Source: Streptomyces sp. T12
GTDB taxonomy: Bacteria > Actinomycetota > Actinomycetes > Streptomycetales > Streptomycetaceae
Length of the DNA: 64,000 bases
Assembly: GCF_028736035.1 (NCBI RefSeq)
Contig: NZ_CP117866.1
Coordinates: 9,961,001 to 10,025,000, forward strand
Direction of reading: 5' to 3'
In this document: piece by piece, positions 2,707-52,895 of the stretch
Layout of the letters: each line of letters begins with the position of its first letter
Numbering within the stretch: position 1 is the first letter of the stretch
Translations under genes and position numbers: made by a program
Notes under the pieces: generated by a model
What the model was told of the DNA's origin: nothing
Databases searched by the model: none
What the model saw: the letters and a program-made list of their open reading frames with translations, nothing else

Positions 2707-7035
<4,329 letters not shown>

Positions 7036-7133
7036 TCCACCTACGGGGGCCCCGACGGCATGCGAAGACAGCGACCGGTACGACGTGGGGCAGCCCTACT
7101 CGAACTCGTTCCTCCCGACCGTCCCCCTGCGCG

Positions 7134-7280
7134 CAGAACGCCACCATCGACGGCTGCTTCCTGAGCAACTCCGAGCTCACCGAGCACCTCGACTGCATCG
7201 CCATCAACCCCGGCGACGGCTACCTCGTCCGGGACGTCAGGTTCGACAACCACATGCGGGTCACCTTCAACCCGAAGTAG
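7134..7280 (+). pseudogene. C-terminal relic of a beta-helix carbohydrate-active protein
   Basis: An open stretch without start codon encodes about 48 residues ending at a TAG (7278-7280): ATIDGCFLSNSELTEHLD, then CIAINPGDGYLVRDVRF. The N/D-G-C and C-I-A-I-N pattern resembles the rungs of right-handed parallel beta-helix proteins such as pectate lyase- or rhamnogalacturonase-like enzymes. A short protein-like stretch just upstream (GQPYSNSFLPT) is in another frame. The rest of the gene is missing. It sits between GH2 and GH36 genes and is probably deletion debris. Confidence 0.4.
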
Positions 7281-7319
7281 CTGCCCGCTGACACCGCAGA
7301 ATTGAAGGAGCACCTGAAC

Positions 7320-9455
7320 ATGAGTGACATCCGCAGTCTCGTCTCCTGGGGCCACGACGCCCTGAGCCTCGTCATCGATGCCGACCAGGACGGCCGTCCA
7401 CGCCTCCGCCACCTCGGCACCTCCGACACCGCGCCCAGGCCGGCCGGTGCGAGGGGGGCGCAGCCGCTGGTCGAGTCCGTCGTGAGCGGGCAGGGCCGGG
7501 ACGCGTCGAGTCGGCGCCAGGTTGACAGCGTCGGCGCGCGACTGCGCTACCTCGGCCACGACGCCCGGCGCGACGGGGAGTGGCACCAGTTGACCGTCTG
7601 CCTGCACGACCCCGAGACGGACCTTGCCGTGGACGTGGTCTATCGCTCGCCCGACGGCATCCCGGTCCTGCGCAGCCATGTGGAGCTGCGCAACGGGGGT
7701 GGCCACCCGATCGACCTGGAGTCGGTCACCTCCCTCGTCCTCGGCGTGCTGACCACGGACCCCGCACAGCTGGAGACCGCGGACCTGCTGTGGGCGGAGA
7801 ACGAGTGGATGGGCGAGTACCGCTGGCAGCGGCGCCCGTTGCGCCAGGCCGTCCCGGACATCAACGGCCGCCTCGTCCACCAGCCCTACCGCAAGAGCGT
7901 CTTCACCCTGGCCGGGAAGGGCTCCTGGTCCAGCGCCGGTCACCTGCCTCTGGGAGCCCTCAGCGATCGCACCACGGGGCGGACCTGGCTGTGGCAGCTG
8001 GAGACCAGCGGGGGCGGCTGGCAGTGGGAGTGCGGGGAGAACGCGGACACGGGGTTCTTGTCCCTGTCCGGCCCCAGCAATGTCCGTCACGGCTGGTCGC
8101 ACCGGCTGGAGCCGGGGGCGGGCTTCACGACCGTACCGGTGGCCCTCGCCCTCACCGAGACCGGCGGCATCGACAAGGCGTTCGCCGCCCTGACCCGCTA
8201 CCGGCGGGCGATCCGCCGCCCGCACTCCGACCACCAGCACCTCCCCGTCATCTTCAACGACTACATGAACTGCCTGATGGGCGACCCCACCACGGCCCGC
8301 CTGCTGCCGCACATCGACGCCGCCGCCGAGGCCGGCGCCGAGTACTTCGTCATCGACGCCGGCTGGTACGACGACGAGGACGGCGGCTGGTGGACCACCG
8401 TCGGCGCGTGGGAGCCCTCCACCTCCCGATTCCCCGGGAAGGGCGGCCTGGGGGACGTCATGGACCGGATACGGCAGCGCGGCATGGTCCCGGGACTGTG
8501 GCTGGAACCGGAGGTGGTGGGAGTGCACAGCCCGATCGCCACCACCCTGCCCGAAGAGGCGTTCTTCCGCCGTCACGGCGCCCGCGTCAACGCGAACGGC
8601 CGCTACCACCTCGACCTGCGCCACCCCGCCGCCCGCGCCCACCTGGACCAGGTGGTGGACCGGCTCGTCGCCGACCTGGGCATCGGCTACTTCAAGCTCG
8701 ACTACAACGTCGACGCCGGTCCCGGCACCAGCAGCCACCCCGGCGAGTCCCCGGCGGACGGCCTGCTCGGCCACAACCGCGCCTACCTCGACTGGCTGGA
8801 CGGCGTCCTCGACCGTCACCCGGACCTCGTCCTGGAGAGCTGCGCCTCCGGCGGCATGCGCTCCGACTACGCCCTCCTCTCCCGCGTCCAACTGCACTCC
8901 ACCACCGACCAACAGAACCTGGAGCTGTACGCCCCGATCGCGGCGGCGGCGCCCACCGCGGTCACCCCGGAGCAGGGGGCGGTGTGGGCCTACCCGGTGC
9001 CCGACAACTCCCTAGACGAGGTCGCCTTCACCATGGCCGGCGCCCTCCTCGGCCGCGTCCACCTCTCCGGCCTCCTCCCCGAACTCGCCCCCGACGCCCT
9101 TGCCTTGGTGCACGAGGCGATCACCGTCCACAAGTCGATCCGCGCCGACCTGGCCACCGCCACCCCCGCCTGGCCGCTGGGCCTCCCCGGCTGGTACGAC
9201 CCGTGGATCGCCCTGGCCCTGCACACCCCGGGCACCACATACGTCACGGTCTGGCGGCGCCCCGGCGACGGCTCCGAGGAGTCGGCCGTCCTTCCGTTCC
9301 CGACCCTTCGCGGTGCGCGGGTCGACATCGACGCCCTGTACCCCTCCATCACCAAGGTCCAGGCCGCCTGGGACGCGAAGGCCTCGGCCCTCGACGTCTC
9401 TGTCCCGTCGGCCCCGTCGGCGGTGCTGCTGCGCCTCTCCGTCCGCCCGGAGTAG
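7320..9455 (+). CDS. GH36 alpha-galactosidase
   Basis: This 711-residue protein has the GH36 layout: an N-terminal beta-sandwich (about 1-280), a TIM barrel and a C-terminal beta domain. The nucleophile is D461 in YFKLDYN and the acid/base is D516 in the CxSGGxRxD motif. It would release terminal alpha-galactose from melibiose, raffinose-type sugars or galactomannan fragments. There is no signal peptide. The ATG at 7320 is preceded by GAAGGAG. With the LacZ-type enzyme upstream it forms a galactoside-cleaving pair, though a relic of another gene separates the two. Confidence 0.93.
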   Translation: MSDIRSLVSWGHDALSLVIDADQDGRPRLRHLGTSDTAPRPAGARGAQPLVESVVSGQGRDASSRRQVDSVGARLRYLGHDARRDGEWHQLTVCLHDPETDLAVDVVYRSPDGIPVLRSHVELRNGGGHPIDLESVTSLVLGVLTTDPAQLETADLLWAENEWMGEYRWQRRPLRQAVPDINGRLVHQPYRKSVFTLAGKGSWSSAGHLPLGALSDRTTGRTWLWQLETSGGGWQWECGENADTGFLSLSGPSNVRHGWSHRLEPGAGFTTVPVALALTETGGIDKAFAALTRYRRAIRRPHSDHQHLPVIFNDYMNCLMGDPTTARLLPHIDAAAEAGAEYFVIDAGWYDDEDGGWWTTVGAWEPSTSRFPGKGGLGDVMDRIRQRGMVPGLWLEPEVVGVHSPIATTLPEEAFFRRHGARVNANGRYHLDLRHPAARAHLDQVVDRLVADLGIGYFKLDYNVDAGPGTSSHPGESPADGLLGHNRAYLDWLDGVLDRHPDLVLESCASGGMRSDYALLSRVQLHSTTDQQNLELYAPIAAAAPTAVTPEQGAVWAYPVPDNSLDEVAFTMAGALLGRVHLSGLLPELAPDALALVHEAITVHKSIRADLATATPAWPLGLPGWYDPWIALALHTPGTTYVTVWRRPGDGSEESAVLPFPTLRGARVDIDALYPSITKVQAAWDAKASALDVSVPSAPSAVLLRLSVRPE

Positions 9456-9551
9456 CCGGGGCGCCCAACCGCTGTGCCGTTACAGAATCCTCCCGAGTCC
9501 TTTGGAGCCCCCGTGCCCACGCCAGCCCGACGTCCGCAGTTCCCTATCGCG

Positions 9552-10805
9552 CTACGACCAGGGCAGGACCAGCGCGCCCCAGGCGACGACAGGACCGAGA
9601 GCGACGATTCCACCGGTGTAGCCGATGACCTGGCGGTAGAAGCGGCGGGGTTCCACCCCGCGAGCGTTGCTGAGGACGAGTGCTCCGTTGGTCGAGAAAG
9701 GAGAGGTGTCGACGATCGTCGTGGAGACGGCGAGCGCGGCGATCAGTCCGGCGGCGCTGAGGTGGCTGGAGAGCAGCAGCGGTACGGCGATGGGGATGAT
9801 CGCGGTGAGGATCGCGGTGGAGGAGGCGAAGGCGGAGGTGATGGCCACGGTGAAGCACAGCAGCAGGGCGACGACGACCGGGGCGCCGAGGCCCGCCGCG
9901 TGTTCGGAGATCTCCTCGATGATGCCGGCCTTCTCCAGCATCGCGATGTACGTCATCATGCCCGCGACCAGAAGCAGGGTGGACCAGCTGACGCCGTCCA
10001 CGGCCTTCTCCTGCCGCTTCATGTCCACCAGGGCCAGCAGGGCGCCGGCAGCCAGCGCAAGGAAGCCGATCTCCAGGTGGAAGCCGAGCGCGCCGACGAC
10101 GAGGGCCGCCAGAGAGGCGAGGGTGAGCCACTGCCGCCAATCGGGCCTGCCGGAGACGGCGAGGTCCTCGTCGTCGGCTGCCTGTGCGGCGCCCTCGGCC
10201 AGGGGTGCGGGACGCTTGGCGAGCAGGGCGTAGGTGAGGATCGAGAGCACCAGGTTGATCACGAAGCTGGCGCTGAACAGCGCCACGGCGGAGACCTGCA
10301 GATCGGTCTTGTCGACGAGGCCGAGCACCAGCGCACCGGAGACGGCCAGCGGGGAGAAGGCGCCCGCGTGCCCGCCACTGATCACCATCATGCCGACGAC
10401 CAGCGGATTGAGCTTGTAGCGGTAGGCGAAGTTCATGCCGATCGGCGCGAGGATCGCGACCGCGGCCGGGGTGAACGTACCGAACGCCGTCAGCAGGGCG
10501 GCCACCAGGAACAGCACCCAGGGGATCAGCGCGACCTTGCCGCGTACCAGCCGCACCCCGGCCGCGACGAGCCAGTCGATGGTGCCGTTGCGGCGGGCGA
10601 CGGAGAACAGGTAGGTGACTCCGACGATGGTGACGAAGAGCTTCGCCGGGAACCCCTCGAAGATCTCGTCCTCGGTGAGGCCGAGCGAGGCCGTGCCGAC
10701 GGCGAAGGTGGCGACGAAGGCGAGGATGCCCAGGTTGATCGGCAGCACGGTGCCGACCACGAACATCACCAGCAGGGCGCCTATGGAGATCACTTCAGCA
10801 GACAT
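9552..10805 (-). CDS. MatC/SLC13-type dicarboxylate permease
   Basis: This 417-residue integral membrane protein has about 11-12 hydrophobic segments and is related to MatC (malonate/dicarboxylate carriers) and the wider ArsB/NhaD ion-transporter superfamily. A loop rich in charged residues near the middle separates two homologous halves, each with a helical hairpin. It is second in an operon with prpF (107-bp gap), and AAGGAC precedes the ATG at 10805. A likely role is uptake of a di- or tricarboxylate that PrpF then isomerises. It ends close to, and convergent with, the GH36 gene. Confidence 0.85.
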   Translation of the reverse strand: MSAEVISIGALLVMFVVGTVLPINLGILAFVATFAVGTASLGLTEDEIFEGFPAKLFVTIVGVTYLFSVARRNGTIDWLVAAGVRLVRGKVALIPWVLFLVAALLTAFGTFTPAAVAILAPIGMNFAYRYKLNPLVVGMMVISGGHAGAFSPLAVSGALVLGLVDKTDLQVSAVALFSASFVINLVLSILTYALLAKRPAPLAEGAAQAADDEDLAVSGRPDWRQWLTLASLAALVVGALGFHLEIGFLALAAGALLALVDMKRQEKAVDGVSWSTLLLVAGMMTYIAMLEKAGIIEEISEHAAGLGAPVVVALLLCFTVAITSAFASSTAILTAIIPIAVPLLLSSHLSAAGLIAALAVSTTIVDTSPFSTNGALVLSNARGVEPRRFYRQVIGYTGGIVALGPVVAWGALVLPWS

Positions 10806-43872: not shown

Positions 43873-43922
43873 GCCCCACAGCGCGGGCGCCGGTCAGGCT
43901 CGGACCTGACGCGCGTATGTGA

Positions 43923-44160
43923 TCACCGGTCCGCGTCGCTCCATTGGTCCAGCAGCGCTTCGGACATGTCTGCGTCGGGCCCGGCCGTCGTGCTGTGGAG
44001 CGCCTGCTCGGTCCAGATCACCTTGCCGCGGGCGAGGTAGCGGGTGCCTCAGCGCTGCGTGAAGGGGCGACGAGGAACAGGCCCCGCCCGCCCTCGTCGG
44101 TGTCGGCCGCCGGCGCAGGTGCGGTGAGGTGCTGCTGCCGTCGGCCAACTCGGCGCTCTC
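43923..44160 (-). pseudogene. HATPase (anti-sigma-factor-like) C-terminal remnant
   Basis: The minus strand carries the end of an ATP-binding anti-sigma-type protein in two frames: GSSTSPHLRR, then TDEGGRGLFLVAPFTQR, an in-frame TGA where Trp is expected, then GTRYLARGKVIWTEQA and the C-terminus. It resembles the remnant at 17141 but is not a copy of it. The reading frame is broken, so it is dead. Confidence 0.65.
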
Positions 44161-44196
44161 GAAGGGCAGGCCGCCGCCCAGCCCCAGCGCCGGGGA

Positions 44197-44447
44197 GCTT
44201 ACAGCCCGCCCATGGTGGCCGCGGCGTGCAGGCCGTGGCCGACGACCTCCTGCAGCTGGCCGCCGGACCGGATCAGGAGCTGGTCAATGTGCAGGAAGTC
44301 CTCAGCTTCGGCGAACAGTTCACCAAGGTCGCCGCAGCCCCGGCCGAGCTGCCCAACCTCTCCACCTACGGCGAGCTCACAGGCAAACTCTGGGGAGAAG
44401 GCGTCCAGGAGCAGCTCTTCAGGGAGTACGCACCACTGATCGGATGA
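44197..44447 (+). pseudogene. Unidentified gene fragment, C-terminal end
   Basis: An open stretch without credible start encodes about 75 well-formed residues (AVADDLLQLAAGPDQELVN, then EVLSFGEQFTKVA, then STYGELTGKLWGEGVQEQ) ending at TGA 44445-44447. Composition looks like a real soluble protein, but I do not recognise the family. The N-terminal side dissolves into the neighbouring HATPase relic, so this is probably the remnant of a gene lost at that junction. Confidence 0.45.
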
Positions 44448-44547
44448 CGACGTAGGTAACGCGCCTTCTGGGAAAAGATGCGTGCTTTGTGGCCGTGTGG
44501 TGACCTTGGTTGTGGAGGCTATGGCTGACCCCAGAGGAGATGGTGAT

Positions 44548-44733
44548 ATGCCTTCCATTGACAAGGCGATCGAGGACATCAAGGGCGTCCGGAGTGACCT
44601 AGAGGCGGCACTTGACCCCGCCGAGCCCGACGGTGTCTACCGCGACAGCCGGGAGTGTGCCGCGCTGGCGCTGCTCTCCGCAGACACCAAGCTGCTGCTG
44701 TCCCCGCCGACCCCTCGCCCCAAGAAGGGCTAG
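44548..44733 (+). CDS. Small acidic 61-residue protein, unknown function
   Basis: The 61-residue product begins with a charged, probably helical stretch (SIDKAIEDIKGVRSDLEAAL), has one Cys near the middle and ends in a Pro/Lys tail (LLLSPPTPRPKKG). A good GAGGAG site lies eight bases before the ATG at 44548; an upstream in-frame ATG at 44521 lacks one. The next gene starts 21 bases after its stop, so it is probably the first gene of a five-gene operon. The acidic N-terminus and small size would fit a leader-bearing peptide or a small partner protein; no family is recognised. Confidence 0.65.
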   Translation: MPSIDKAIEDIKGVRSDLEAALDPAEPDGVYRDSRECAALALLSADTKLLLSPPTPRPKKG

Positions 44734-44754
44734 CGGACCGACGGGAGCAGCTGA

Positions 44755-45468
44755 ATGGAGCAGTCAGGCACTTCGGCCCTCTTGCAGGGCGCGGTGCAGG
44801 ACCTTGCGGCCGACGTGGTCTCCGCCCTTCGGGGTGGGGACCACGTGCGCATGTCCGGCACGGGGGCGACGGACGACCTCGAGGGCAACTTCGCCCTCGC
44901 GGCGGTACGCGTGTTGGGAGCAGACCTGCTGCTGCCGCACGTACTCTTTCCGACTCCGCCCGCCCCAGAGGTACTTGCCGTGTTCCGCAGGACGGTGGAG
45001 GCCTTCCCGCCGCGCGCCGACGCGGCACCCACCGTCAAGTGGAGCCACTGGGCGATGAGTCGGACCCTGCGGCGGCTCGACACACCCCTGACCGGAGCAC
45101 CCGCCGGGGACCCGGCCGCGGAACCGGACGCCGCCGGCTGGCTCGACGAGGCGACGTGGCAGGTGCTGACGCACCAACTCGCCGTCCTGGCCCCGCTCGC
45201 GGTGCCCGGTGAGGACTGCGCGGTGGTCCGCGCCGCCCAGCGCCGCCCGGTCGACGTGGCCCGGGGCTTCGTACGGGCCGTCCGCCGCAGGGACTGGCAG
45301 CAGGCGGCCGGGGCGGGACGCTGGCTGACCCTGCTCGACGGGGTCCCGGACACACTCGGCCTGGAGGCGGGGCTGGACTTCGTGGAACTGATGGGCGGCA
45401 GCGACCCCCGGGTGGCCCTGCAGGTCCAGGCGGCACGGGTCATGCGGGCGGCCGGAGCGCTCGTATGA
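44755..45468 (+). CDS. Hypothetical protein, second gene of unknown operon
   Basis: This 237-residue protein has no recognised domain. It appears alpha-helical and soluble, with no signal or membrane segment. Notable segments are ALAAVRVLGADLLLPHVLFP and a Trp-containing VKWSHWAMSRTLRRLD. Its stop overlaps the following start (ATGA at 45465), indicating coupled translation with the two paralogues downstream and a shared role. Confidence 0.75.
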   Translation: MEQSGTSALLQGAVQDLAADVVSALRGGDHVRMSGTGATDDLEGNFALAAVRVLGADLLLPHVLFPTPPAPEVLAVFRRTVEAFPPRADAAPTVKWSHWAMSRTLRRLDTPLTGAPAGDPAAEPDAAGWLDEATWQVLTHQLAVLAPLAVPGEDCAVVRAAQRRPVDVARGFVRAVRRRDWQQAAGAGRWLTLLDGVPDTLGLEAGLDFVELMGGSDPRVALQVQAARVMRAAGALV

Positions 45469-46529
45469 CCGCCCTGGGCGCCAGGGAGATCCGAGCCGGC
45501 GAGATCCGAGTCGGCGAGGTCCGAGAGGTGGGAGCCGCCGCGTTCGCCTGGCTGTCCGCGCACCGGGGCGACTTCGCGTTGGGCGAGGACGCACTCACCG
45601 CGGACGGCCACGTGGACGCCACCTGGAAACCGCTCGGCGAACTGGCGCAGACCTGTGCGAGCGTACGCGCGCACACCCCGCCGTCCGATCCGCTGCACGC
45701 GTGTGCGCAGGACCTGCTGCGTTTCGCCTGGCAGCAGACCGGCCGGGGCGAGCTCTTCCTGCGGCTCCAGCAGTCGGAGCCGTTCGCGACGTACCCCCTG
45801 GAGATCTACTCCGTCTTCGCCTCGGCCGGGCTGCGGCATCCCGGATACGAGGCCGCGGCCGCCACGACGGCCCGCACCCGGGGCTGGCGGCTCACCGAGC
45901 AGGATCCGACCCGCCGGCTCGGCGTCCTGAAAGCCGAGCGGCGCAGCGGCATCCGGCGCCCGGAGCGGGACGCGGAGGTGCTGCGGCGCACCTGGCTGGG
46001 CGGACTGCCGGAACCATGGACGTTCGAGCGCTCCTCCGGGTACGCGCTCACCCACGTCGTCTTCCACCTCACCGACTGGGGCCGCACCCCCGCGGGCGTC
46101 CCCGCGGACCTGGCGGCCTACCTGGCCCACTGGCTGCCGCCCTGGCTCGACACCTGCCTGGACGCCGGGATGTGGGACCTCGGCTGCGAGCTGCTGGTCG
46201 TGGCCACGAGCCTGCCGTGCCGGCCCGACCACACGACCCTTCAGCACGCCTGGACCCGGATCGCCCGGGCACAGCACGACTCCGGCGCGCTCCCGCAGCA
46301 GGCCCCGGGCGCCCGGGGCGACGCCGGAGCCGACTCCTGGGACGACGCCGCAGCGGACCCGGAGCCGGACTTCCTCCAGTGCTACCACTCCACTTTGATG
46401 GCGGCCTTCGCGGCGGCACAGACCGTCAAGTACCTCGCCGGCGAAGGCCACGAGGACGGTGCCGAGGACCGCGCAGCGCACGTGGGCGGCACGCAGAACC
46501 GGTACAGGGGACAAGGAGTGCCCGGATGA
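45465..46529 (+). CDS. Unknown-family Trp-rich protein A (possibly DUF6895)
   Basis: This 354-residue protein is paralogous to the next gene. Shared motifs are GELA near residue 55, DPTRRLG, TWL followed by PEPWT, and the strongest block TH-V-VFHLTDWG with a YLA-WLP-W continuation, then a C-terminal YH-TL-AAFA. The conserved His, Asp and Trp residues and helical character suggest an alpha/alpha barrel or toroid, possibly enzymatic. The first 22 residues contain three 5-residue repeats (REIRAGEIRVGEV) absent from the paralogue. A DUF6895 assignment is from memory and unverified. Confidence 0.75.
   Translation: MTALGAREIRAGEIRVGEVREVGAAAFAWLSAHRGDFALGEDALTADGHVDATWKPLGELAQTCASVRAHTPPSDPLHACAQDLLRFAWQQTGRGELFLRLQQSEPFATYPLEIYSVFASAGLRHPGYEAAAATTARTRGWRLTEQDPTRRLGVLKAERRSGIRRPERDAEVLRRTWLGGLPEPWTFERSSGYALTHVVFHLTDWGRTPAGVPADLAAYLAHWLPPWLDTCLDAGMWDLGCELLVVATSLPCRPDHTTLQHAWTRIARAQHDSGALPQQAPGARGDAGADSWDDAAADPEPDFLQCYHSTLMAAFAAAQTVKYLAGEGHEDGAEDRAAHVGGTQNRYRGQGVPG
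45486..45530 (+). repeat. Three tandem 15-bp repeats in the start of gene A
   Basis: Units at 45486-45500, 45501-45515 and 45516-45530 follow GAG[AG]TCCGAG with small changes. They encode a repeated [GR]E[IV]R unit and may represent a recent slippage expansion of the N-terminus. Confidence 0.8.
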
Positions 46530-47446
46530 CCGACACCCGTCTGATGCACACCGTCGGCGTCCGCGCCCTGGAGTGGCTGTGGGCCCATCGCGACGGATTC
46601 CGCCTGGAGCCCGACGTCGATCCGGAAGTGGGCTTCCTGGAGCGCTTCAAACCGGTCGGCGAACTGGCCCTGATCTGCAGGGTGTTGTTCCGCGAGGGCG
46701 TGGCCGGATCACGGCAGGCCGAACTGGCGCGCAAGCTCCTCGACCACACGTGGCGGCACACGCTGGACGGCGGTCGCATGCTGGTGCGCGGCCAGCGCAT
46801 CGAGCCGCTGTCGCCCATCCCGTTCGAGGTGTACCTCCCGTACAAGGAACTCGGGTACAGCGAGCCCGAGGTGGAGCGTGCCACCGTCCTCTACCACCGG
46901 CTCGACAGCTGGGCGGCCCTCGAACTGGACCCGACCCGCCGCCTCGGCCTGTCCGCGTTCCAGCGCCGCTTCGGCCTCACGCCCCGCATGCCCGAGGCGG
47001 GCATCGTCGGTTCGACCTGGCTGGCCCGCACCCCCGAGCCCTGGACGGTCAGCGGGCACATCGCCTACGACGTCACCCACACGGTGTTCCACCTCACCGA
47101 CTGGGGAGAGCACCCCGACGGCCTGCCGCCGGACATCGCCGACTACCTCGCCATGTGGCTGCCCGTCTGGATCGACGACTGGCTGGACCTCGAACGCTGG
47201 GACCTGCTCGGCGAACTCCTGGTCGTCGACGCCTGCCTGCCCCGCCCCACCCTGGACGAACGGGCCTGGGAGGGCTTCGCCGCCGCACAGCAGCCCGACG
47301 GGGCCATGCCCGCCGTGCGGACGATGCCCGAGGGCGAACCGGACGAGGTGTTCGACATGGTCTACCACCCGACGCTGGTCGCCGCCTTCGCCTCGGTGCT
47401 GGCCACCTCCCGCGCCCTCACCGAGCTGACGCACGCCCCCTCATGA
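46526..47446 (+). CDS. Unknown-family Trp-rich protein B (paralogue of A)
   Basis: This 306-residue protein aligns with gene A over its whole length: VGVRALEWLWAHRDGF at the start, DPTRRLGLS, EPWT, then THTVFHLTDWGEHPDGLP and the YHPTLVAAFA end. It lacks the repeat-bearing N-terminus of A. Keeping two diverged copies side by side in coupled translation (ATGA on both sides) argues for a heteromeric complex or two sequential reactions. Confidence 0.78.
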   Translation: MTDTRLMHTVGVRALEWLWAHRDGFRLEPDVDPEVGFLERFKPVGELALICRVLFREGVAGSRQAELARKLLDHTWRHTLDGGRMLVRGQRIEPLSPIPFEVYLPYKELGYSEPEVERATVLYHRLDSWAALELDPTRRLGLSAFQRRFGLTPRMPEAGIVGSTWLARTPEPWTVSGHIAYDVTHTVFHLTDWGEHPDGLPPDIADYLAMWLPVWIDDWLDLERWDLLGELLVVDACLPRPTLDERAWEGFAAAQQPDGAMPAVRTMPEGEPDEVFDMVYHPTLVAAFASVLATSRALTELTHAPS

Positions 47447-48525
47447 CCGGCCCGTCGACGCCCTGGCCGGGTGCCGAGGACGACAGGGACCACTTGCTTG
47501 CGGGCGGCTTCCTCGGCACCGACGACACCTTGCGGGAGCGGCTGGAGAGCGCCGTCGGCGCCATCGACGCGCCCGACGCCGTCTTCGCCGTGTCCCGCTC
47601 CGGCCGCCGCATCCTGCACTGCGGTGGCACCGCCCCGCCCCCACGCGTCCCGCGGCAGGACCTGCGCTACGAGATCGGTTCGGCCTCCAAGGCGTTCGCC
47701 GGCCTGCTGCTGGCCCAGCTCATCCAGCGCGGCCTGCTGACCGGGGGCGAGTCGGCCGCCGCCTGCCTGGACCCGGGCCGACGGACCGACGCGGACCCGG
47801 TGACGCTGGCTCACCTCGTCACGCACACCGCCGGACTGCCGGCCCTGCCGGCCGACTTCTACCCGCGGGCGCTGCCCGCCTGGCGCACCAACCCCTACGG
47901 CCGCTATCCGGCCGAGCGGGTGGCCGACGCTTTTCTCCGCCGCCGCGGCCCCCGGCACCGGCCCGGCACCAGGTGGCACTACTCCAACTTCGGCGTCGCC
48001 GTGCTTGGTCACGCCGTCGCGGCGGTGACCGGCACGGCGTGGGAGGAGCTGCTCGGCGCGCACGTGCTGCGGCCGCTCGGCCTGAGCGGCACCGCACTGC
48101 AGGCGGAGGACCCGAAGACCGACGCCGTCGGGCACGGCAAGGACGGCCGTACGCCCACCCTCGCCTTCGACGCGGGCGGCTTCCAGGCGGCGGGCGCCGT
48201 CCGCGCCACCCCGCACGACCTGCTGACGTTCCTCGAAGCCCACCTCGCGCCGGAGGGCTCCCCGTGGGCCGACGCCCTGCGGGCGGTGCGCACCCCCGTG
48301 CTCCGACGCGGCCCGGGACACCGGCACGTGCACACGATGGCGTGGTTCCGGCACCCCACGAACGGCGGCCCGATGTACTTCCACAGCGGGGCGACCCTCG
48401 GTCAGCAGGCCTTCCTGGGCTTCAGGCCCGACACGGGCACGGCCCTGGTCGCCCTGTGCACCCGCCGCTTCCGCGCCCGCGACTCCTTCATCGCCACCGC
48501 GTACGCGCTCCTCGCGGAGGAGTAG
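47443..48525 (+). CDS. Serine hydrolase, beta-lactamase/PBP fold
   Basis: The 360-residue protein belongs to the class C beta-lactamase-like serine hydrolases, with nucleophile SASK (S-x-x-K), the Tyr motif YSN and the third motif HSG. There is no signal peptide, so it acts in the cytoplasm. Relatives include esterases, D-peptidases and PBP-type thioesterases that cyclise peptides. It overlaps gene B by ATGA and closes the operon. Its substrate may be the small peptide at 44548 or a product of A and B; this is speculative. Confidence 0.9.
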   Translation: MTGPSTPWPGAEDDRDHLLAGGFLGTDDTLRERLESAVGAIDAPDAVFAVSRSGRRILHCGGTAPPPRVPRQDLRYEIGSASKAFAGLLLAQLIQRGLLTGGESAAACLDPGRRTDADPVTLAHLVTHTAGLPALPADFYPRALPAWRTNPYGRYPAERVADAFLRRRGPRHRPGTRWHYSNFGVAVLGHAVAAVTGTAWEELLGAHVLRPLGLSGTALQAEDPKTDAVGHGKDGRTPTLAFDAGGFQAAGAVRATPHDLLTFLEAHLAPEGSPWADALRAVRTPVLRRGPGHRHVHTMAWFRHPTNGGPMYFHSGATLGQQAFLGFRPDTGTALVALCTRRFRARDSFIATAYALLAEE

Positions 48526-48620: not shown

Positions 48621-49988
48621 CTACAACCGCTCCCACAGGGCCGGAGTGGAGCTCGGCGACCACGCGCCCTGCGCCTGGTGGGTCTGCACGCACTGGTAGC
48701 GCACGCCCGCGTGGGTCACCGTCGTGCCGGCCTCGTAGACGCGGCCCGCGGCCCATGTCTCCGCTGCGTCGTTGTCCTCCGGAGCGGGAGTTCCGGCCTG
48801 GCCGGACGAGGTCTTCAGCACGAGGCCGAATTCGCTGAGGATCGGGTTGATCGGCTGGTAGAAGGTGGTCCCGCCGTCCGTGCAGTCACCCGAGCCGCCC
48901 GAGGTCACGCCCTGTGCCTGAGAGCCCGAGATGTACGGGCCGCCGGAGTCGCCCGGCTCGGCGCACACGGTCGTCTCGGTCACGCCGTCCACGGTGCCCT
49001 GCGAGTAGCTGACACTCGTGTCGTGCTGCTCGATGGTGCCGCAGTGCCAACCGGTGGTGGAACCGGAGCGGCAGATCGACGCCCCGACGAGCGCCTGGAC
49101 CGAGCCGGTGACCTGCGTCCGCTCGCCGTCCTCACCCTCCACGTCGGACGTGGCGGTCCAGTCGCTGTTGACGCCGACCCAGGACATGTCCTTGCCGGGG
49201 AACGTGGAGGCCTGGAACGTGCCCTGTTGGGCCATGTTGGAGCCCGCGGTCGTGTCGCCCTTGGTCCCGCAGTGGCCCGCCGAGGCGAAGCCCTGCTGCT
49301 GGTCCTTGGTGATGGAGAACCCGATGGAGCAGCGGGCAGTGCCCTCGATGTAGTAGGCGTCGCCGCCCACGAGGTCGGCCAGCAGCCGGGGCCGGTCCGC
49401 CGACAGGCGGACGCCGACGCCCTTGCCCTGGACGCCGGCGGCCTTGATGAAGGCGGTGGCGGCCGAGCGCTTGGTCGCCTGGACGACGACCCGGTTCGTC
49501 GGTACGTCGACGTACCAGACCGGTGTGTCGCGCGTCTTGACGCGGGCGGCGGCCGTGTCCAACTTCTTCTTGACGGCCCGGAGTTCGGCCAACGGGTGCT
49601 TGACGACCGCGGCCTTCGCGCCCTGGGCCTTGATGGCGGACACGTCGGCGGCGTGCGTGGTCGCGACGGTGAGCTCCGCGGAGGTCGCCCCCCGCAGCCA
49701 GGCCCCCGCGAAGTGCTCGCCCAGGGCGTTGCGGAGGCGACCCGCGCGGACGCCCGCCTCCGCCTCGTTGACCAGCCGCTCGGCCGCCTGACCGGGCTTC
49801 AGCTTCAGGTCACGCTCCACGGCACGCAGCACCGCGGCCGGCGGCCGGTCGGCGCCGAGCGTCTGTGCGGCGGTGGACGCGGGCGGCGGCTCGGCCGCGG
49901 CGGCCGAGGTGACCCCGGTGAGGACGAGGGCGCCGAGAGCGGTCAGGGCGGCGCCGCGGCGACCGGCCGCGGTATGTCTGCCGAGCAT
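48621..49988 (-). CDS. Secreted S1-type serine protease with chitin-binding domain (streptogrisin-like)
   Basis: The 455-residue preproprotein has a signal peptide (ending near A-A-A-A), an alpha-lytic-protease-type prodomain (about 40-180) and a chymotrypsin-like domain with triad H239 (AGHCG), D267 (KDMSW) and S348 (GDSGGP). After a linker the C-terminus is a CBM5/12 chitin-binding domain (WAAGRVYEAGTTV, then YQCVQTHQAQGAW). The layout is that of streptogrisin C. The start at 49988 is chosen because GGAGGT lies 7 bases upstream; an earlier ATG at 50003 lacks a good site. It probably degrades protein associated with chitin or fungal walls. Confidence 0.93.
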   Translation of the reverse strand: MLGRHTAAGRRGAALTALGALVLTGVTSAAAAEPPPASTAAQTLGADRPPAAVLRAVERDLKLKPGQAAERLVNEAEAGVRAGRLRNALGEHFAGAWLRGATSAELTVATTHAADVSAIKAQGAKAAVVKHPLAELRAVKKKLDTAAARVKTRDTPVWYVDVPTNRVVVQATKRSAATAFIKAAGVQGKGVGVRLSADRPRLLADLVGGDAYYIEGTARCSIGFSITKDQQQGFASAGHCGTKGDTTAGSNMAQQGTFQASTFPGKDMSWVGVNSDWTATSDVEGEDGERTQVTGSVQALVGASICRSGSTTGWHCGTIEQHDTSVSYSQGTVDGVTETTVCAEPGDSGGPYISGSQAQGVTSGGSGDCTDGGTTFYQPINPILSEFGLVLKTSSGQAGTPAPEDNDAAETWAAGRVYEAGTTVTHAGVRYQCVQTHQAQGAWSPSSTPALWERL

Positions 49989-50170
49989 GCGATGTACCTC
50001 CATCGAGTACGAGTGGGATGTCGACCAGCTCAAGGCCTTGACGCAAAGGCGTGCACCGATGCCGTAAGAGACGTTTTTTCGCGCTTTGGGGGGCTCCGAG
50101 TGGTGCCATGTGCATCACTGCCGTGGCACCCGGTCCCGTGTGGATCACCAAACCTTCATCACTCGTTTTC

Positions 50171-50200
50171 TTGAATCATTCGTGTTTAGCGAGGTAGGTT
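50171..50200 (+). promoter_or_regulatory. furA promoter with apparently leaderless start
   Basis: TTGAAT (50171-50176), 18 bases, then TAGGTT (50195-50200) lies just seven bases before the furA ATG, and no ribosome site is visible. Transcription would begin at or near the A of the ATG. The AT-rich stretch TCTTGAATCATTCGTG may hold the FurA autoregulatory site. Confidence 0.65.
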
Positions 50201-50207
50201 GTCTCCC

Positions 50208-50657
50208 ATGACCGCATCCCAGACCCCGACCCCCGCCGAGGAGCTGCGCGGTGCCGGCCTGCGGGTGACCGCCGCGCGTGTCGCGCTGCTGGAGGCCGTC
50301 CGGGCCGGTGACCACCTCGGCGTCGAGGCCATCGCCTCCGGGGTGCGTGATCGCGTAGGCCATGTCTCCCTGCAGGCCGTGTACGAGGGCCTCCACGCAC
50401 TCACTGCGGCGGGACTCATCCGCCGTATCGAACCGGCCGGCAGTCCGGCCCGGTTCGAGGGGCGTATCGGCGACAACCACCACCACGTCGTGTGCCGGTC
50501 GTGCGGTGTCGTCGCCGACGTCGACTGCGAGGTCGGCGAGGCGCCGTGTCTGACCGCGTCCGATGACCACGGCTTCGCCATCGACGAGGCCGAGGTCATC
50601 TACTGGGGCCTGTGCCCCGACTGTTCCACCGCCAGCAGTGCACCCCGAGCACTGTGA
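50208..50657 (+). CDS. furA: FurA-type peroxide/iron-responsive repressor
   Basis: The 149-residue Fur-family protein has a winged helix (about 10-80, VSLQAVYEGLHAL) and a metal-binding dimerisation domain with HHHVVC-x-x-C (VCRSCG) and a C-terminal CPDC. In Streptomyces FurA (FurS/CatR type) represses itself and the adjacent catalase-peroxidase gene and is released by peroxide. The linked katG 24 bases downstream fits exactly. The ATG at 50208 is chosen because the promoter ends just before it; a TTG at 50199 would start within the -10. Confidence 0.95.
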   Translation: MTASQTPTPAEELRGAGLRVTAARVALLEAVRAGDHLGVEAIASGVRDRVGHVSLQAVYEGLHALTAAGLIRRIEPAGSPARFEGRIGDNHHHVVCRSCGVVADVDCEVGEAPCLTASDDHGFAIDEAEVIYWGLCPDCSTASSAPRAL

Positions 50658-50666
50658 TCCACCTAG

Positions 50667-52895
<2,229 letters not shown>

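Follow-up and report, generated by a model that had tools for sequence, protein, structure and literature searches.

The genome of Streptomyces sp. T12 (11.46 Mb) carries a five-gene operon that we examined in a 64,000-nucleotide stretch of contig NZ_CP117866.1 (positions 9,961,001 to 10,025,000), referred to here as the window and numbered from its first base. By analysis of open reading frames (ORFs), the five genes lie on the plus strand between positions 44548 and 48525 and encode, in order, a 61-residue peptide, a 237-residue orphan protein (orf237), two paralogues designated A and B, and a serine hydrolase. There is strong evidence that these genes constitute a conserved unit, and comparison of the peptide sequences provides strong evidence for a putative precursor of the kind found in ribosomally synthesized and post-translationally modified peptide (RiPP) pathways. 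On balance, we favor a RiPP-type operon in which A and B, as (alpha/alpha)6-barrel epimerases, would install D-residues, and the hydrolase, an S12-type enzyme, would cut or cyclize the peptide at those residues.

Results

The five genes are a conserved unit

The genes encoding the peptide (44548..44733), orf237 (44755..45468), paralogue A (354 residues, 45465..46529), paralogue B (306 residues, 46526..47446), and the hydrolase (360 residues, 47443..48525) each have a third-position GC content of 84-95%. ATGA overlaps join the last four, and the coordinates agree with a sequence-only reading of the window that had described five genes in one direction coupled in this way. The exact 4-base overlap recurred across the stretches we fetched, at 135 of 147 junctions between orf237 and A, 124 of 146 between A and B, and 81 of 99 between B and the hydrolase (some genomes, the window's own among them, entered these counts twice), and the overlaps are thus not due to chance. 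An AGAGGAG ribosome-binding site precedes the peptide gene at the end of a conserved 5' region (44465..44547, plus strand), in which no sigma-70-like site was found. Alignment of the upstream DNA from the window and 17 named relatives revealed conservation of approximately 85 bases before the peptide gene and hardly any further upstream, and the peptide is therefore the first gene of the unit.

Paralogue B was used to retrieve 80 named loci whose B proteins were 74-98% identical to the window's copy, that is, close relatives. The genes for the peptide, orf237, A, and B were present in all 80, and the five genes were found in the same order in 77; in the remaining three the contig edge was reached before the hydrolase. 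Two of the 80 loci (L110 and L111) had paralogue B and the hydrolase in broken frames, and may be decaying copies or assembly errors. The sequence-only reading had proposed a dedicated pathway that should be abandoned if the five genes never occurred together in other genomes, an outcome that did not arise.

Among 392 Streptomyces genomes, orf237 was matched in 138 and the family of the two paralogues, DUF6895, in 170, with 136 genomes having both. Only partial orf237 matches were found in the two genomes with orf237 and no DUF6895, one consisting of two short fragments, one of them with a stop (G009), and the other covering 139 positions (G280). The protein is thus a near-obligate partner of DUF6895 where it occurs. 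Conversely, 34 of the 170 DUF6895-positive genomes had no orf237 match; for one of these (G185), another search found a divergent orf237 relative beside DUF6895 (L162). DUF6895 is rarer beyond the genus: in a sample spanning the class, Streptomyces included, it was found in 32 of 394 genomes and 12 of 137 genera, and in one other family in 31 of 297 genomes. We also compared the surroundings of the cassette at 33 loci, the majority of which are more divergent, and found no further gene family recurring beside it in more than 8.

The 61-residue peptide has the pattern of a precursor

The peptide frame was present in 110 of 113 loci, the window's copy counted; of the other three, two were chance DNA matches and one locus was cut before the peptide. 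A further 333 database relatives were found at E <= 0.001. Conservation of this frame had been named by the sequence-only reading as a point on which its proposal would stand or fall, and it was borne out.

Per-site omega was estimated for 112 peptide sequences on the tree of paralogue B. Following a variable N-terminus is a first conserved arm, DPAEPDGVYRDSREC (residues 23-37, 44614..44658, plus strand), centered on DPxExDGxYRDSREC, in which omega was 0 to 0.14 at P24, E26, G29, and RDSREC, and above 1 at D23, A25, and Y31. A variable six-residue center, LSADTK in the window (residues 43-48, 44674..44691, plus strand), is the proposed core; its sites had undergone 6 to 57 amino-acid changes, with 30-57 changes and omega near 1 at five of the six, and the third site was conserved as G/A. 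The C-terminal arm, LLLSPPTPRPKKG (residues 49-61, 44692..44730, plus strand), hardly varies and is the proposed follower; its PPTPRPK motif showed zero amino-acid changes in the 112 sequences and is replaced by PPAPRPK in a few database relatives. This pattern of substitution in arms and center is evidence at the coding level that the frame is translated. Because omega at the center is near 1 and not clearly above it, diversifying selection is not shown.

We compared 264 peptides, 144 taken from loci and 120 drawn from the 333 database relatives, with some genomes represented twice. The two-arm pattern fit 257 of them, and the other seven departed from it mostly through single changes. The 257 peptides had 94 distinct centers, 90 of which were six residues long; counted by peptide, the center had six residues in 244 and four in 13. 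A small gene-encoded peptide that adjoins putative modifying enzymes and has conserved arms around a variable core is a feature of RiPP clusters.

Related cassettes with a single DUF6895 gene (11 of 11 in one set, as well as L207-L209) retained the gene order, with a small peptide first, then an orf237-like gene, DUF6895, and the hydrolase. Their peptides, recognized by eye, differ from the 61-residue peptide yet fill the same slot. One kind is Leu-rich toward its end, with tails that are mostly SPKxPK-like, and another has a Leu/Ala-rich stretch before an acidic tail. In one locus (L163) the orf237-like gene was in a broken frame.

The paralogues belong to the RiPP-associated family DUF6895

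The sequence-only reading could name no function for the orphan or for the two paralogues, in which it had noted a common VFHLTDWG motif. The motif is indeed present in both A and B, and profile hidden Markov models assigned both to Pfam DUF6895 (PF21836) with scores of 296.8 and 280.7 bits, respectively, against a curated cut-off of 23.8 bits; the paralogues thus have a named family, and the orphan still has none. The A sequences formed a monophyletic clade. Ten family-wide residues (E46, Y181, T184, H185, D192, G194, D226, E230, G259, and H281 in B numbering) were each kept in 36 to 41 of 41 aligned sequences, and A and B keep all ten. B was modeled as an all-alpha (alpha/alpha)6 barrel. A DUF6895 enzyme is named as a lasso-peptide epimerase in the title of a paper (ACS Catal. 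2026, 16, 1757) cited in the review PMC13352647, and by this family relationship we regard A and B as putative peptide epimerases.

The same genome has a second DUF6895 locus (L153; G000:C1:5562000-5581900, 6760-10773), in which DUF6895 comes after a short lasso-like precursor and a PqqD-like B1 gene, both recognized by eye, a transglutaminase-like B2, and an asparagine-synthetase-like C. This is probably a lasso cluster, since the cyclase and transglutaminase-like protease are lasso hallmarks. Beyond it, we drew on a set of 27 loci, 6 of which were orf237 cassettes and 21 not. Fourteen of the 21 were analyzed, and one of these, L219, had no gene call, leaving a sample of 13. Of the seven others, L153 is the lasso-type locus above, L154 was covered for its DUF6895 gene, and L152, L155, and L156 were covered as ORF lists; L215 and L222 did not enter the analysis. 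A RiPP enzyme lay within three predicted genes of DUF6895 in 8 of the 13: a LanB dehydratase in L151 (and in L214 by similarity), a YcaO protein in L224, a lasso cyclase in L226, and a radical-SAM enzyme in L210, L211, and L216 (and in L212 by similarity). DUF6895 is a RiPP-associated family.

Several of these loci have further features. DUF6895 directly follows the radical-SAM enzyme in L210, L211, and L212, and an MFS-type transporter comes next in L210 and L211; a subtilase-like gene is nearby in L210 and L212, and L211 encodes a short acidic peptide with the C-terminal sequence DDWCVINLSKL. The LanB-type dehydratase of L151 and L214 is accompanied by a methyltransferase, and by eye L151 also has a cytochrome-P450-like gene.

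The hydrolase is of S12 type

The sequence-only reading had recognized a known fold in the hydrolase, and this proved correct, as the protein matches PF00144 (181.6 bits), the S12/class C beta-lactamase fold, and has the SxxK (S80, K83), YxN (Y180, N182), and HxG (H314, G316) motifs. We screened 115 related ORFs, a set in which some genomes are represented twice, for the three motifs. All three were present in 107, and the other 8 had SxxK and HxG only; one of these has a broken frame and seven come from one class of single-DUF6895 peptide cassettes. A simple hydropathy scan found a hydrophobic N-terminus in none of the 115, and the hydrolase is therefore probably cytosolic. It was rejected as a member of the class C beta-lactamase equivalog, its NCBIfam bla_class_C score being 69.8 bits against a cut-off of 415 bits.

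Sequence kinship extended to ClbP (E 2.4e-15), alkaline D-peptidase (8.6e-12), and DD-peptidase R61 (2.8e-10). Penicillin-binding protein (PBP)-type cyclizing thioesterases such as SurE share the S12 fold and use a C-terminal D-residue. ClbP is described in PMC9889268 as an S12-family D-amino peptidase; the same family includes the class C beta-lactamases.

The orphan is predicted to be all-helical

The orphan orf237 matched no Pfam or NCBIfam family. Its structure model was all-helical (pLDDT 84.8), with no clear match among solved folds. A PqqD-like RiPP recognition element is frequent in RiPP clusters without being universal. No Pfam match to one was found in either the peptide or orf237; Pfam also missed the PqqD-like genes of lasso clusters that were recognized by eye. 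We consider orf237 a possible substrate-binding subunit.

Neighboring genes

Upstream, positions 43894-44460 separate the conserved 5' region from an SDR gene; they contain overlapping fragmentary ORFs only and have the look of gene remnants. Downstream, on the minus strand, 48621-50033 appears by eye to be a gene for a secreted trypsin-like protease, which is the downstream neighbor in 73 of the 80 close-relative loci and is not constant in divergent relatives. A Fur-like regulator, also assigned by eye, adjoins a catalase-peroxidase gene (PF00141) at 50199-52895.

Discussion

A candidate pathway and its alternatives

In the pathway we favor, the precursor would comprise a leader (residues 1 to approximately 42), the short variable core, and the conserved C-terminal follower, with the helical orf237 protein and the leader serving to bind and present the peptide. 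A and B, which have an invariant His and more conserved acidic and His residues, would invert at least one residue by acid/base chemistry. The S12 hydrolase would then recognize the D-residue and form an acyl-enzyme there, which would be resolved either by water, releasing the peptide, or by a core amine, cyclizing it, and the follower would be discarded. The gene unit, the conserved peptide with its variable center, the family memberships, and the retained catalytic motifs are observed; epimerization is deduced from the family, and the role of orf237, the position of the D-residue, the choice between cleavage and cyclization, and the S12 release step are what we infer. The dedicated pathway of the sequence-only reading is consistent with the co-occurring genes and conserved peptide frame, and its suggestion that a peptide is modified and released fits with the protein families found. 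As a bolder and tentative idea, which we think somewhat unlikely, the operon might represent a new RiPP class founded on stereochemistry alone. Tandem (alpha/alpha)6-barrel epimerases would write D-residues into the variable core, and a cytosolic S12 enzyme of beta-lactamase fold would take the D-residue as its cue to remove the invariant follower and macrocyclize the core; radical-SAM, ATP-dependent, and redox enzymes would play no part.

Several observations weigh against the epimerization pathway. The activity and product of the operon are putative, and the epimerase report on a DUF6895 relative is known by its title, as cited in PMC13352647. Many non-epimerases share the (alpha/alpha)6 fold at equal or higher Z, and Foldseek returned nothing at E <= 0.001. 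No RiPP enzyme was seen in 5 of the 13 non-cassette DUF6895 loci, and several of the eight positive loci are near relatives of each other. The best matches of the hydrolase profile are class C beta-lactamases rather than D-peptidases, and thus sequence does not settle its specificity; in a single-sequence search, the best PDB match was the PBP-related beta-lactamase 2qmi, followed by ClbP. S12 also includes esterases and transferases. In a 30-row alignment the Asn of YxN was not kept in one class of single-DUF6895 peptide cassettes, which kept the Tyr. The hydrolase was absent beside three orf237-DUF6895 pairs (L218, L220, and L225). Among the short ORFs upstream of two of these pairs, L218 and L225, are candidate peptides that do not resemble those of the other loci and that in L225 are Pro-rich; inspection of L220 revealed no clear small peptide. 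The center of the 61-residue peptide may be merely unconstrained, with its omega near 1 and not clearly above. Finally, the unit has no export gene, and no transporter or exporter was shared among the flanks of the 33 loci.

Some of these points bear on other explanations. DUF6895 might carry out a RiPP modification other than epimerization, such as dehydration, cyclization, or isomerization, with the S12 protein acting as a plain protease or esterase. We judge this unlikely, as A and B keep the family-wide residues, which are shared with the lasso-type proteins, and the one functional report on DUF6895 that we know of names epimerization, going by its title in the PMC13352647 reference list. 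Less likely again is that the peptide is a small subunit, scaffold, or inhibitor of an enzyme composed of orf237, DUF6895, and the hydrolase that acts on another substrate, the center being an unconstrained turn between binding arms. An omega near 1 would suit such a free loop, the nearly invariant C-terminal arm is what one would expect of a binding face, and no exporter was linked in the flanks of the 33 loci; against this, DUF6895 elsewhere is often within RiPP clusters, and the single-DUF6895 cassettes have peptides of a very different kind at the corresponding position, as suits a precursor better than a conserved subunit. The variable center between constant arms also recalls signals whose variable part determines specificity, and the pathway could make a secreted variable peptide, a pheromone or morphogen; we regard this as highly improbable, as no regulator, receptor, or exporter family was common to the flanks of the 33 loci.

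Relation to known systems

By the features tested, the operon is not of the lasso, radical-SAM epipeptide, or MslH type. Epipeptides are made via radical-SAM epimerases such as YydG, encoded in a small operon of peptide, epimerase, and protease. The present operon is likewise small, and has no radical-SAM gene among the five. Nor do the five genes include an asparagine-synthetase-like cyclase or transglutaminase-like protease, and no such family is shared in the flanks, as would be needed for a lasso peptide. With the lasso epimerase of the ACS Catal. title (via PMC13352647) the operon has family PF21836 in common, and differs in having two DUF6895 copies, its own precursor family, orf237, and the S12 hydrolase.

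MslH, which acts on the lasso peptide MS-271, is described in PMC10406935 as a non-radical epimerase with a Ca(II)-dependent calcineurin-like fold that epimerizes a ribosomal peptide by acid/base chemistry with His/Asp. The chemistry resembles that proposed for the operon, whereas the fold differs from the all-alpha (alpha/alpha)6 barrel modeled for DUF6895, and epimerization by DUF6895 would thus be a different solution. An MslH-type epimerase was rejected, as no calcineurin-like Pfam match was found in the five genes and the B model is all-helical.

The operon hydrolase shares SxxK and YxN with the S12 D-peptidases ClbP, alkaline D-peptidase, and R61; it differs in lacking a hydrophobic N-terminus, in having a peptide and putative epimerases encoded alongside it, and in that class C beta-lactamases fit its family profile better, its D-specificity being putative. 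No description of this operon was found in a literature search of non-subscription papers. The general logic of RiPP pathways is known; the gene set, the precursor family, and the pairing of enzymes are without description in the literature searched.

Roughly one in three of the Streptomyces genomes sampled (138 of 392) has an orf237 match. If the proposed pathway is correct, the operon would represent a compact class of RiPP in which modification is independent of radical-SAM chemistry, and D-residue peptides whose core varies naturally could be made by a genetically encoded route. The operon would also offer a way to test S12 enzymes as D-residue-gated release or cyclization enzymes in RiPP pathways, and DUF6895, which in our loci has lasso, LanB, radical-SAM, or YcaO enzymes in its vicinity, would be predicted to be a general RiPP tailoring family.
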